This document shows positions 8,820 to 32,373 of a stretch of 64,000 nt of DNA, piece by piece. Position 1 is the first letter of the stretch; every line of letters starts with the position of its first letter. Source of the stretch: Sulfurospirillum sp. (GTDB lineage: Bacteria; Campylobacterota; Campylobacteria; Campylobacterales; Arcobacteraceae); NCBI GenBank assembly GCA_030491005.1, contig JAKZMJ010000032.1, positions 62,001 through 126,000 on the forward strand, in the 5' to 3' direction. Under the pieces are notes generated by a model that saw nothing but the letters and a program-made list of their open reading frames with translations, was not told where the DNA came from and ran no database searches. The position numbers were made by a program, and so were the translations under genes.

Positions 8820-11299
8820 TGAGTGATTTAATTAAGTTAAATATAGATGGTAAAGATATACAAAGTAAAGAAGGTGAAACAATATTAAATATAGCAAGAA
8901 AGAATAATATTTTTATTCCAGCTATTTGTTATTTAACTAGATGTTCACCTACACTAGCTTGTAGATTGTGTTTAGTTGAAGTTGATGGTAAGCAAGTATA
9001 TTCATGTAATGTTAAAGCAAAAGACACAATGCAAATTAAAACTACTACTGCAAATATTGAGACTGAAAGAAAAGCAATCATGGAAGTTTATGATGTAAAT
9101 CATCCTTTACAGTGTGGTGTTTGTGATCAAAGTGGAGATTGTGAGTTACAAAACTATACCTTATATATGAAATTAAATTCTCAAAAATATACTGTAAAAG
9201 ATGTGCATAGACCTGCCTCGAACTGGGGAGTTATGAATTATGACCCAGGGCTTTGTATAGTATGTGAAAAATGTGTAACTGTATGTAAAGATATGGTGGG
9301 TTCTAGTGCATTAAGTACAGTTAAAAGAAATGCTGATCCTCTTGATAAATCGTTTAAAACCTCTATGCCAAAAGATGCTTATGCTATGTGGAATAAGTTA
9401 AATAAATCTTTAATAGGTTTTGATGCTACTTCATGTGTTGATTGTGGTGAGTGTATTTCTGTTTGTCCAGTTGGGGCATTAGTTAGTAATGATTTTCAAT
9501 ATAAATCAAATTCTTGGGAGTTAAGTAAAATTCCAGCAGCAAATCCACATTCAAGTGATTGTTCTTTTATGTATTATGAAGTTAAACACGAATCAATTAT
9601 AAATCATGCAAAGCAAAAAATATATAGAGTTACAAATGAACATCATTATTCTACTTTAAATGGTGCAGGAAGATTTGCTTATGATTTTGAAAATAAAGTT
9701 GAGCAAAAAGATGAAGAAGAATTTAATAAAGCTATTAAGATGTTCAAAGATGTAGAAACTATAAAGTTCAATTCTTATATTACAAATGAAGAAGCTTATA
9801 TCTTACAAAAATTAAAAGACAAACTTTCTTGTAGATTAGTAAATGTTGATGCTTATAATTATAAAAGTTTTATAAATGAATATTCTAAAAATTCTGGTTC
9901 TTCTTTATACTCATCAAATTTAAAAGATATACATAAATCAAACTTTGTCATATCTATAGGTTCATATTTAAAATCTGACTTACCAAATGCAAGGTATGCT
10001 TTTAACAATAGTATAGTTATAAATAAAGGTGCAGGTTTATACTTTCACCCTATAAAAGACCCAATAATGGAAAAAATAGGTAAAAGAGGTAAAAATATAG
10101 AATTCGTTTATCATAAACCTTTAAGCGAAGAATCAATTTTATATTTAATTTTATATAAATTTGGAAAAAATTTACCACCTTTACTGCAAGAATATATATC
10201 TTCATTAAAAGAAACAAGAGTAAGAACAGTAGAACAAACTATAAAAGAAACGATTATAAATGTAGTAAAAGATGAAAATGGTGAAGAAAAAGAAGTAAAA
10301 GAAATAGTATCAAAAAAAATAAGCAAAGAAGAAGAATACGAATATATAAGTTTATTAGATGATATATCTTATGATGGTTCCTTATTAGATACTATAGATA
10401 AGTTATTAGCAAAAAAAGATACCTTTAGTTTAATAGTTGGAGAAGATGTAATAAGTCATCCAAATAGTAAAAACTTAGCTAAGCTTTGTGGTTTGGTTGA
10501 TAAATATACAGATTTTAAGGTAGTAATTATTCCAAGTCAAACAAATACTTTAGGAGTTAGTTTAATTTGTGATTTAGATGAATATGAGAAGGGTCTAACT
10601 ATTGGTTATAATGAAAAAGCCACATATGAGTTATCTGCTTTAGGTGATGGAAACCTTGATATACCAGCTCTTAATCAACAAGAAGGAACTTTTGTAAATA
10701 TCGATAAAAAAGTCATTCCTACAAATGCAGCACTTCCATATAAAGGTTATACTTTAAATGATATTGCTAATAATATTCTTGATATAGATGTTGAGCATAC
10801 AATAGAATATACTAAGGAATTACCAAAACAAAAAGGTTTTAAAGAAATAGATTTTGATGATTTAGTAAATAATATCAATAATTCTAGTGAAGACACTAGA
10901 GGTTATACTTTAGAAACTTTTAACTGCCAAACAAATGATTCATTTGATAAATTAAATTCTTCTATTTTAAAAAACCTAGAAAATAAAGAAAATGAAACTT
11001 TAATTTATAGAGCAAATCCAATTAATCAATTTAATGAATTTACAGCAATTGCACATGAGTTTCAAAAAAACTTAGAGTCTGGTTTATTTGTTTCTAAAGA
11101 ATTAATGAATAAATTAAATCTTCAACAAAATGATAAAGTAATAGTAAATGCAAACAATACACAAATACAATTAAATACATATATAGATGAACAAATTTCA
11201 GGAGATATAGCATATATATCAACTTTTGATAAAAAATTAAATACTAAAAATCTATTTAATACTTACAGATATAATAATGCTGTAATTACAAAGGCTTAG
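8819..11299 (+). CDS. nuoG: NADH-quinone oxidoreductase subunit G
   Basis: An 826-residue iron-sulfur subunit. Cys37, 48, 51 and 63 match cluster N1b. His95, Cys99, 102 and 108 match N5. Two complete CxxCxxCxxxC motifs follow (Cys146-156 and Cys206-216), where canonical NuoG usually supplies ligands for one cluster (N4) here. The four-cysteine N7 site is not present; only Cys248 is seen. The remaining 570 residues are a degenerate molybdopterin-oxidoreductase-like domain. A Lys/Glu-rich insert lies at about residues 460-510. The protein passes electrons through the hydrophilic arm. It ends one base before nuoH. Confidence 0.93.
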   Translation: MSDLIKLNIDGKDIQSKEGETILNIARKNNIFIPAICYLTRCSPTLACRLCLVEVDGKQVYSCNVKAKDTMQIKTTTANIETERKAIMEVYDVNHPLQCGVCDQSGDCELQNYTLYMKLNSQKYTVKDVHRPASNWGVMNYDPGLCIVCEKCVTVCKDMVGSSALSTVKRNADPLDKSFKTSMPKDAYAMWNKLNKSLIGFDATSCVDCGECISVCPVGALVSNDFQYKSNSWELSKIPAANPHSSDCSFMYYEVKHESIINHAKQKIYRVTNEHHYSTLNGAGRFAYDFENKVEQKDEEEFNKAIKMFKDVETIKFNSYITNEEAYILQKLKDKLSCRLVNVDAYNYKSFINEYSKNSGSSLYSSNLKDIHKSNFVISIGSYLKSDLPNARYAFNNSIVINKGAGLYFHPIKDPIMEKIGKRGKNIEFVYHKPLSEESILYLILYKFGKNLPPLLQEYISSLKETRVRTVEQTIKETIINVVKDENGEEKEVKEIVSKKISKEEEYEYISLLDDISYDGSLLDTIDKLLAKKDTFSLIVGEDVISHPNSKNLAKLCGLVDKYTDFKVVIIPSQTNTLGVSLICDLDEYEKGLTIGYNEKATYELSALGDGNLDIPALNQQEGTFVNIDKKVIPTNAALPYKGYTLNDIANNILDIDVEHTIEYTKELPKQKGFKEIDFDDLVNNINNSSEDTRGYTLETFNCQTNDSFDKLNSSILKNLENKENETLIYRANPINQFNEFTAIAHEFQKNLESGLFVSKELMNKLNLQQNDKVIVNANNTQIQLNTYIDEQISGDIAYISTFDKKLNTKNLFNTYRYNNAVITKA

Positions 11300-30824: not shown

Positions 30825-31112
30825 TTATTTAGCTTTGAATTTATAAATAACTTTATATAATAATTCTTCTTTTTTTAATGCTCCGAAGTTTCTACTATCA
30901 ATACTAAAAGCATTCTCACCTTTTACAAAATAAGAATTAGATTTAATTTTATCAACTCTCTTAATCATCATTCCTTCATATTGATGTCGAAACAATACAA
31001 AATCATTTACTCGTATTTTATTTAAAAAAAAAGGCTTCATACATAAGACCCATTGCCCCTGCTTTAAAAGAGGGAACAATGAAAAACCGTCTATGATGAA
31101 AAGTTTAAGCAT
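30825..31112 (-). CDS. sodX: S26-family peptidase, probable NiSOD maturation protease
   Basis: A 95-residue signal-peptidase-like protein. Ser11 in DGFSLFPLL and Lys51 in GMMIKRV match the Ser-Lys pair of S26 peptidases; SRNFGAL near the C-terminus is the third conserved box. No N-terminal membrane anchor is seen, and the length is that of the NiSOD-linked SodX/CbiX-like proteases. It lies immediately downstream of the NiSOD gene, sharing one base with its stop. The job inferred from this context is to remove the short propeptide so that His1 of the nickel hook is exposed. Confidence 0.82.
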   Translation of the reverse strand: MLKLFIIDGFSLFPLLKQGQWVLCMKPFFLNKIRVNDFVLFRHQYEGMMIKRVDKIKSNSYFVKGENAFSIDSRNFGALKKEELLYKVIYKFKAK

Positions 31113-31567
31113 TAAGAAGGAACGATAATCTCTTCATTTGGTAAATAATTAGATTTAACTTTTTTTGTATTTACACCTTTTATTTTCCAGAATATTTCTG
31201 CAAAATCATTTACTAAAGCTAATAATTCCATAGCCTTATCTCTTGATACATGTTGTCTATTAGCAGACCCTAAAGTCATAATATTATGAACAAGAGCATG
31301 AATTTCAGGGTATTGCTCGATTTGTGGAGCTTTTATGAAATCTCCCCAAATAATTCTAATTTCATGTTTTACTTTTTCAGCTTCTTCTTCTTTTACTGCT
31401 ACATGTCTTGTAATTGTATTAATATAATCTAAAGAATCATTCTTCTCTAAAGCATTCATTAAATCAACCATTCTAATCACACTAAGTGCTGCAATTTGTG
31501 CAACTATTGGATCATAAATACCACAAGGTACATCACAATGAGCTTTTACTGATTCTATTTTAAACAT
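31112..31567 (-). CDS. sodN: nickel superoxide dismutase
   Basis: A 151-residue precursor. Residues 10-20 read HCDVPCGIYDP, the nickel-hook motif that defines NiSOD: after removal of 9 residues, His1, Cys2 and Cys6 and the amino terminus bind nickel. The remainder is the four-helix bundle with HAL(V)HNIMTL-type and KHEIRIIWGDF-like segments normal in the family. The enzyme converts superoxide to oxygen and hydrogen peroxide. It heads a two-gene unit with the maturation protease and lies opposite a nickel-permease-like gene. Confidence 0.95.
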   Translation of the reverse strand: MFKIESVKAHCDVPCGIYDPIVAQIAALSVIRMVDLMNALEKNDSLDYINTITRHVAVKEEEAEKVKHEIRIIWGDFIKAPQIEQYPEIHALVHNIMTLGSANRQHVSRDKAMELLALVNDFAEIFWKIKGVNTKKVKSNYLPNEEIIVPS

Positions 31568-31587
31568 ATTTATCCTTTTATATTTTG

Positions 31588-31614
31588 TTATTTTAAAATG
31601 TTATATTTTAAATA
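31588..31614. promoter_or_regulatory. AT-rich dyad in the sodN/permease divergent region
   Basis: TTATTTTAAAATG and ATATTTTAAATAA form an imperfect inverted repeat 20 to 47 bases ahead of sodN. It lies where a repressor such as a Fur- or NikR-family protein could act. AT-rich dyads arise easily in such sequence, so this is only a candidate. Confidence 0.3.
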
Positions 31615-31731
31615 AGCCACATTTTAGTAAATTATAGATTAAGATTATCTTATAATTTAAACTAAAGTAAATATAAAAATCTATACTTATATATATTTTG
31701 GCTAGAATACGGTTTTTTAAGAAGGGGTGTA

Positions 31732-32373
31732 ATGGAAAGCATAGGATTGTTATTGATATTTTGGTATGGAATTTTACATGCTTTTGGACCAGATCATTTA
31801 ACTGCTATTGCAGACTTTTCAATAGGTAAAAATAAAACAAAAACATTAATGATTACTATATTATTTGCTTTTGGTCATGGAATATCTTTATTTATTTTTG
31901 CAAAACTTTTAGAAATTTATGATATTCCAGAAAGTTTTACTAATTATGGAGATATAATTTCATCTATTGTTATTTTTTCTATGGGAATTTATTTGTTATT
32001 TATGGTTTTTACAAATCAAATTAATATTAATAAACATATTCATAAGGGAAAAGAACATATTCATATTTATTTTGGTAAAAAACATCACCATTCAAAAAAA
32101 GATATGACGTCTGCTTTTACTCTTGGTATTTTAATGGGTATTGGAGGAATTAGAGGAATGCTAGTTACTTTTGCTTTGCTTGATAATTCAAATGTTGATT
32201 TCTTATTAGTATTTATATTTACCTTTGGCGTTATGATTGTTTTTATTTTATTTGGCTTGGGTATATTATATATCAATAAGAACTTGTTAAAATCAGAAAA
32301 AAATATAAAAATAGCTTTTACTAGTGTAGGTATTATTTCTCTTATTGTTGGTTCTAATATTTTAATGGCTTAA
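31732..32373 (+). CDS. nickel/cobalt permease-like membrane protein (UreH/NicO type)
   Basis: A 213-residue protein with six hydrophobic segments. HAFGPDHLTA (His16 to His22) is the HxxxxDH signature of nickel-cobalt transporters and UreH-like proteins. A His-rich loop follows (about residues 102-123: HIHKGKEHIHIY and KKHHHSKK), which probably binds metal. The gene diverges from sodN across a 164-base gap, so it probably supplies nickel for the dismutase. A TAGAAT box at 31703-31708 is a likely -10, and AAGGGG precedes the ATG. Confidence 0.8.
   Translation: MESIGLLLIFWYGILHAFGPDHLTAIADFSIGKNKTKTLMITILFAFGHGISLFIFAKLLEIYDIPESFTNYGDIISSIVIFSMGIYLLFMVFTNQININKHIHKGKEHIHIYFGKKHHHSKKDMTSAFTLGILMGIGGIRGMLVTFALLDNSNVDFLLVFIFTFGVMIVFILFGLGILYINKNLLKSEKNIKIAFTSVGIISLIVGSNILMA

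Follow-up and report, generated by a model that had tools for sequence, protein, structure and literature searches.

A nickel superoxide dismutase cassette with a SodX-like protease and a UreH/NicO-like permease in an Arcobacteraceae genome

Marine cyanobacteria provide the closest described counterpart of the locus studied here, a sodN-sodX-sodT cluster (PMC4284471) in which nickel superoxide dismutase (NiSOD, SodN), a maturation peptidase and a UreH-family permease are co-localised in Prochlorococcus and Synechococcus (PMC4284471, PMC10119275). The permease of these organisms has six helices, the third and fourth of which are joined by a His-rich loop; the permease described below also has a His-rich loop, and a low-confidence model predicts a similar helix layout for it. 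NiSOD is cytosolic in marine cyanobacteria and the sole SOD in some of them, and a cytosolic NiSOD with a soluble protease of about 90 residues is the norm (PMC8346466). A second point of reference is the NiSOD of Streptomyces coelicolor (1t6u, 1q0d), which shares with our locus the nickel hook, the four-helix fold and a short propeptide without a signal peptide. In the Streptomyces enzyme, Glu17 of the neighbouring subunit holds His1 within a Glu17–Arg47 hydrogen-bond network (PMC5722923). The NiSOD groups listed in a survey that covered 15,899 bacterial genomes include no epsilonproteobacteria (PMC8346466), and in the open-access literature we found no paper naming NiSOD in Campylobacterota.

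SodN and its adjoining protease

We analysed a 64,000-nucleotide stretch (the window) of a Sulfurospirillum sp. genome placed in the family Arcobacteraceae (GCA_030491005.1, contig JAKZMJ010000032.1). The cassette comprises the following features:

30825–31112, minus strand: sodX-like S26 protease gene, 95 aa, with a Ser11/Lys51 dyad and without a membrane anchor (PF10502)
31112–31567, minus strand: sodN, NiSOD precursor, 151 aa (TIGR02753 and PF09055 profiles, AlphaFold/Foldseek)
31508–31540, minus strand: nickel hook HCDVPCGIYDP, SodN residues 10–20, with His1, Cys2 and Cys6 of the mature enzyme
31541–31567, minus strand: predicted propeptide MFKIESVKA, 9 residues (homology to the mature Streptomyces NiSOD N-terminus, a His)
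31568–31731, no strand: divergent sodN-permease intergenic region, 164 bp, 17.7% GC (promoter and terminator scans)
31732–32373, plus strand: putative UreH/NicO-like nickel permease gene (SodT-like), 213 aa (NicO profile, homologue neighbourhoods)
31777–31797, plus strand: HAFGPDH motif, permease residues 16–22 (sequence)
32035–32091, plus strand: His-rich loop (HIHKGKEHIHIYFGKKHHH), permease residues ~102–120, between predicted helices 3 and 4 (sequence)

SodN scored well above the cut-offs of both family profiles, TIGR02753 (167.3 bits, E 2.3e-49, cut-off 90) and PF09055 (156.7 bits, E 5.3e-46, cut-off 25), and solved Streptomyces NiSOD chains matched it at 1e-20 in a sequence search. The HCxxPCxxY hook follows immediately after the short propeptide, and its H, C, D, P, C and Y positions are invariant across the 85 SodN rows of our alignment. 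Cleavage is predicted to fall before His10, and the 9-residue spacing is common to most of the campylobacterote SodN clade. An AlphaFold model built from a six-member SodN alignment was four-helical (pLDDT 83.6) and was matched by Foldseek to the NiSOD structures 1t6u, 1q0d and 3g50 with a probability of 1.00 and a TM-score over the target of 0.86–0.90; NiSOD chains were the only PDB matches at E <= 0.001. Residues 1–16, which comprise the propeptide and part of the hook, were modelled with low confidence, as is unsurprising without the metal. Judged by profiles, hook sequence and predicted fold, 31112–31567 (minus strand) encodes a genuine NiSOD with an intact hook. This bears out the preliminary description of the locus, which had read sodN here with a nickel hook after a 9-residue propeptide.

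The second shell of the active site differs from that of the Streptomyces enzyme, whose Glu17/Arg47 pair (PMC5722923) is Ala/Glu in the campylobacterote clade: all 37 SodN rows of this clade have Ala17 and Glu47 (mature numbering), and most other sampled loci combine His47 with a small residue at position 17. In the window's SodN (31112–31567, minus strand), mature positions 17 and 47 are Ala26 and Glu62. Glu47 was considered as a trait of the campylobacterote clade only and was rejected, as Novosphingobium L128 also has Ala17/Glu47. Whether the Glu17-Arg47-His1 network tunes NiSOD is a question posed in PMC5722923, and a natural Ala17/Glu47 second shell bears on it.

The protease gene starts within the sodN stop codon, with a one-base overlap at a TAATG junction. 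Its product scored above the cut-off for PF10502 (Pfam, S26) and below it for TIGR02754, a model of 90 positions (33.1 bits, E 5.7e-8, cut-off 63.25); four sodN-adjoining relatives also fell short of the TIGR02754 cut-off (28–42 bits). G9, S11, P14 and K51 are invariant in 84/84 aligned sodN-adjacent proteases. The earlier reading of an S26-type protease with a Ser11/Lys51 dyad, joined to sodN, stands on profile, dyad and gene overlap. The signal peptidase I model TIGR02227 fits the protein as well as TIGR02754 does (36.7 bits, likewise below cut-off), which could make it a general signal-peptidase paralogue that is dispensable for SodN, with another enzyme processing the precursor. We regard this as very improbable for a protein of just 95 residues that lacks an anchor and overlaps sodN, the more so as the same gene adjoins sodN in almost every one of 80 loci retrieved from many phyla, a pairing that is not due to chance. 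The protease, while not certified as SodX by the model, most likely works like SodX. Its missing anchor had been taken to suggest a cytosolic enzyme pair; an anchor-less, cytosolic pair does fit, but the feature is ordinary rather than unusual, since this is the norm for cytosolic NiSOD (PMC8346466).

The permease and its nickel link

The facing permease scored below the cut-off of Pfam NicO (20.6 bits, E 3e-4, cut-off 27.7). Its residues H16, A17, F18, G19, D21 and H22 are invariant in 10 aligned homologues, as are H102, H104, H109, H111, H118 and H120 of the loop in the permease homologue alignment; the helix positions and count (about six) come from a low-confidence model (pLDDT 54). Coordinates and motif conservation thus agree with the preliminary description of a UreH/NicO-like permease with HAFGPDH and a His-rich loop. 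The same HAF(G)xDH motif and His-rich loop characterise the UreH/NicO permeases of NiFe-hydrogenase operons, and within this bacterial family hyp operons begin with homologues about 55–72% identical to the window permease, whereas the window permease is linked to sodN.

Close permease homologues were found in 28 genomes of the family; at E <= 0.001 the number is 38, which includes ten marginal cases. Among 15 examined copies without an adjacent sodN, 11 are adjoined by hypB, which is then followed in most cases by hypC and hypD; for one such copy, the neighbouring HypB and HypC were confirmed with Pfam. Besides the window, the permease adjoins sodN in six Arcobacteraceae-type loci, where the two genes diverge, and in 11 loci of Sulfurovum, Thiotrichaceae and Alcanivoracaceae; in Sulfurovum and Thiotrichaceae it lies in line with and upstream of sodN. 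As the sodN-linked permeases of Arcobacteraceae and of Sulfurovum/Thiotrichaceae are far apart in the permease tree, the linkage is either old or of more than one origin. By its hypB/hypC/hypD or sodN neighbours, the permease family is tied to nickel enzymes, and the association of homologues with hyp operons supports the earlier proposal of nickel uptake by the facing permease.

The same association raises the question of which nickel enzyme the permease serves. The window's genome has NiFe hydrogenase genes, located on another contig, and therefore uses nickel beyond NiSOD. It has a single permease copy, close homologues stand first in hyp operons, and some relatives have sodN-sodX with no neighbouring permease (e.g. 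S. arcachonense, L003). It is therefore possible, although on balance unlikely, that SodN and SodX act as described and that the permease mainly serves the hydrogenases, its position beside sodN being historical. However, AH-541-O20 and G448 hold a second permease copy in addition to the sodN-linked one, and the linkage to sodN occurs again, with another gene orientation, in Sulfurovum and Thiotrichaceae. We favour a permease that would supply nickel for SodN.

Two further observations concern the permease neighbourhoods. In AH-541-O20, the sodN-linked and hyp-linked permeases lie about 4 kb apart (L022:4661-5320 and 9667-10317). Beside sodN-less permeases, mostly divergent from them, stands a gene for a protein of about 210 residues with a zinc-ribbon-like N-terminus (L106-L111, L114, L115, L118, L120-L123); it has a weak FtrD-like Pfam match and is a possible regulator. 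Scans of the sodN-permease intergenic region found no terminator and no promoter-like matches beyond chance, and inspection of upstream regions by eye revealed no common regulatory box.

The preliminary description had called the trio a self-sufficient module. All three genes are present, but the arrangement is already known as sodN-sodX-sodT from marine cyanobacteria (PMC4284471), and 'self-sufficient' is a loose term given the relatives without an adjacent permease. Compared with Prochlorococcus and Synechococcus, SodN here belongs to another clade, nearest to Chloroflexota among the sampled loci, the permease is divergent in Arcobacteraceae, and in many campylobacterote relatives an ankyrin gene lies between permease and sodN.

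SOD distribution and SodN phylogeny

The cassette comes from a metagenome bin of 33 contigs with an estimated contamination of 3.4%, and a mis-assembled or contaminant segment therefore had to be considered. This is extremely improbable: the cassette is embedded in a contig of 259 kb, where aspS and a penicillin-binding-protein 1A-like gene flank it, its GC content matches its surroundings (27.9% for sodX-sodN, 27.0% for the window), and the other genome of the genus carries cassette and permease at 92–93% identity. The earlier, provisional placing of the cassette in a campylobacterote is supported.

The genome has one SodN copy. NiSOD is probably its sole SOD, because profile searches, in which positive-control genomes matched each family, found no Fe/Mn-SOD (PF02777), Cu/Zn-SOD (PF00080) or superoxide reductase (PF01880) in this 97%-complete, 33-contig assembly, where a missed SOD is possible. 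Fe/Mn-SOD was likewise absent from the second genome of the genus in the profile search. The preliminary description had contrasted this NiSOD with a phylum relying on iron SOD, and for this genome the contrast is stronger than claimed. Rarity in the phylum was supported as well: SodN was found in 5/397 Campylobacterota genomes (4/69 genera). Within the window's genus, both genomes have it. Across the 104 genomes of the family, 11 had SodN and 69 Fe/Mn-SOD, with 2 having both where about 7 were expected (Fisher p=0.0008, shared ancestry ignored). Fe/Mn-SOD was absent in 9/11 NiSOD carriers of the family, in both Sulfurospirillum carriers and in 23/24 further carriers, that is, in 34/37 overall, several of which are incomplete bins. 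Nickel and iron SODs are thus largely mutually exclusive in the window's family.

The SodN phylogeny across Arcobacteraceae that had been proposed earlier was run with 85 rows and 146 columns and midpoint-rooted. Campylobacterote SodN, from Arcobacteraceae, Sulfurospirillum and Sulfurovum, formed a single group (support 99/96), next to Chloroflexota/Thermoplasmatota SodN and with Thiotrichaceae and one Alcanivoracaceae bin nested inside. Since the tree is short and midpoint-rooted, we can only infer the direction of transfer into the phylum. The nested gammaproteobacterial sodN genes suggest export from Campylobacterota, to Thiotrichaceae, and transfer of permease-sodN-sodX between sulfur-oxidiser lineages. 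The campylobacterote-type permease-sodN-sodX unit was seen in Thiotrichaceae and the Alcanivoracaceae bin at L035, L037, L039, L041, L043 and L045. Flanking genes vary among carriers, so sodN and sodX travel together as a unit. SodN was found in no phage record or viral contig and in only two plasmid records, so nothing points to transport by phages or plasmids.

Proposed function, an upstream ankyrin gene and significance

In this marine, Arcobacter-like bacterium, the cassette is very probably a nickel-dependent superoxide defence unit that replaces iron SOD. The permease would import Ni2+ into the cytoplasm, and SodN would be synthesised as an inactive precursor, from which the co-translated SodX-like Ser/Lys protease would cut nine residues to leave a free N-terminal His. 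Once released, His1, Cys2 and Cys6 would bind nickel, and the assembled NiSOD, presumably a hexamer, would dismutate cytosolic superoxide.

In many relatives a further gene may take part. An ankyrin-repeat gene lies directly 5' of sodN in 14 distinct loci (L005, L018-L023, L026, L029, L030, L034, L040, L097, L100), among which L020 and L100, and L018 and L019, are near kin. Ankyrin-repeat genes were located at, for example, L005:1914-2495 (minus strand) and L002:889-1482 (plus strand). The window and its sister genome have no ankyrin gene before sodN; there the permease adjoins sodN instead. In Pseudomonas and Campylobacter, catalase depends for its activity on ankyrin proteins (AnkB, Cj1386), according to work cited in PMC7567364, which makes an ankyrin partner of SodN a testable guess. 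By this analogy, the ancestral campylobacterote unit might have been permease-ankyrin-SodN-SodX, with the ankyrin protein a dedicated partner in NiSOD maturation or nickel delivery that was lost in the window's genus, and with the clade having swapped iron SOD for nickel; we offer this as speculation, and think it rather improbable as a whole.

Each part of the cassette is of a known type. What is new is the existence of a NiSOD clade in Campylobacterota and the near absence of Fe/Mn-SOD among its carriers, which are undescribed in the open-access literature searched, together with the recurrent ankyrin-repeat gene before sodN in many relatives. The map of NiSOD thereby gains a Campylobacterota lineage with many records from sulfur-oxidiser or deep-sea bins, and the near-exclusive exchange of Fe/Mn-SOD for NiSOD inside one family means that the choice of metal can be studied between close relatives.
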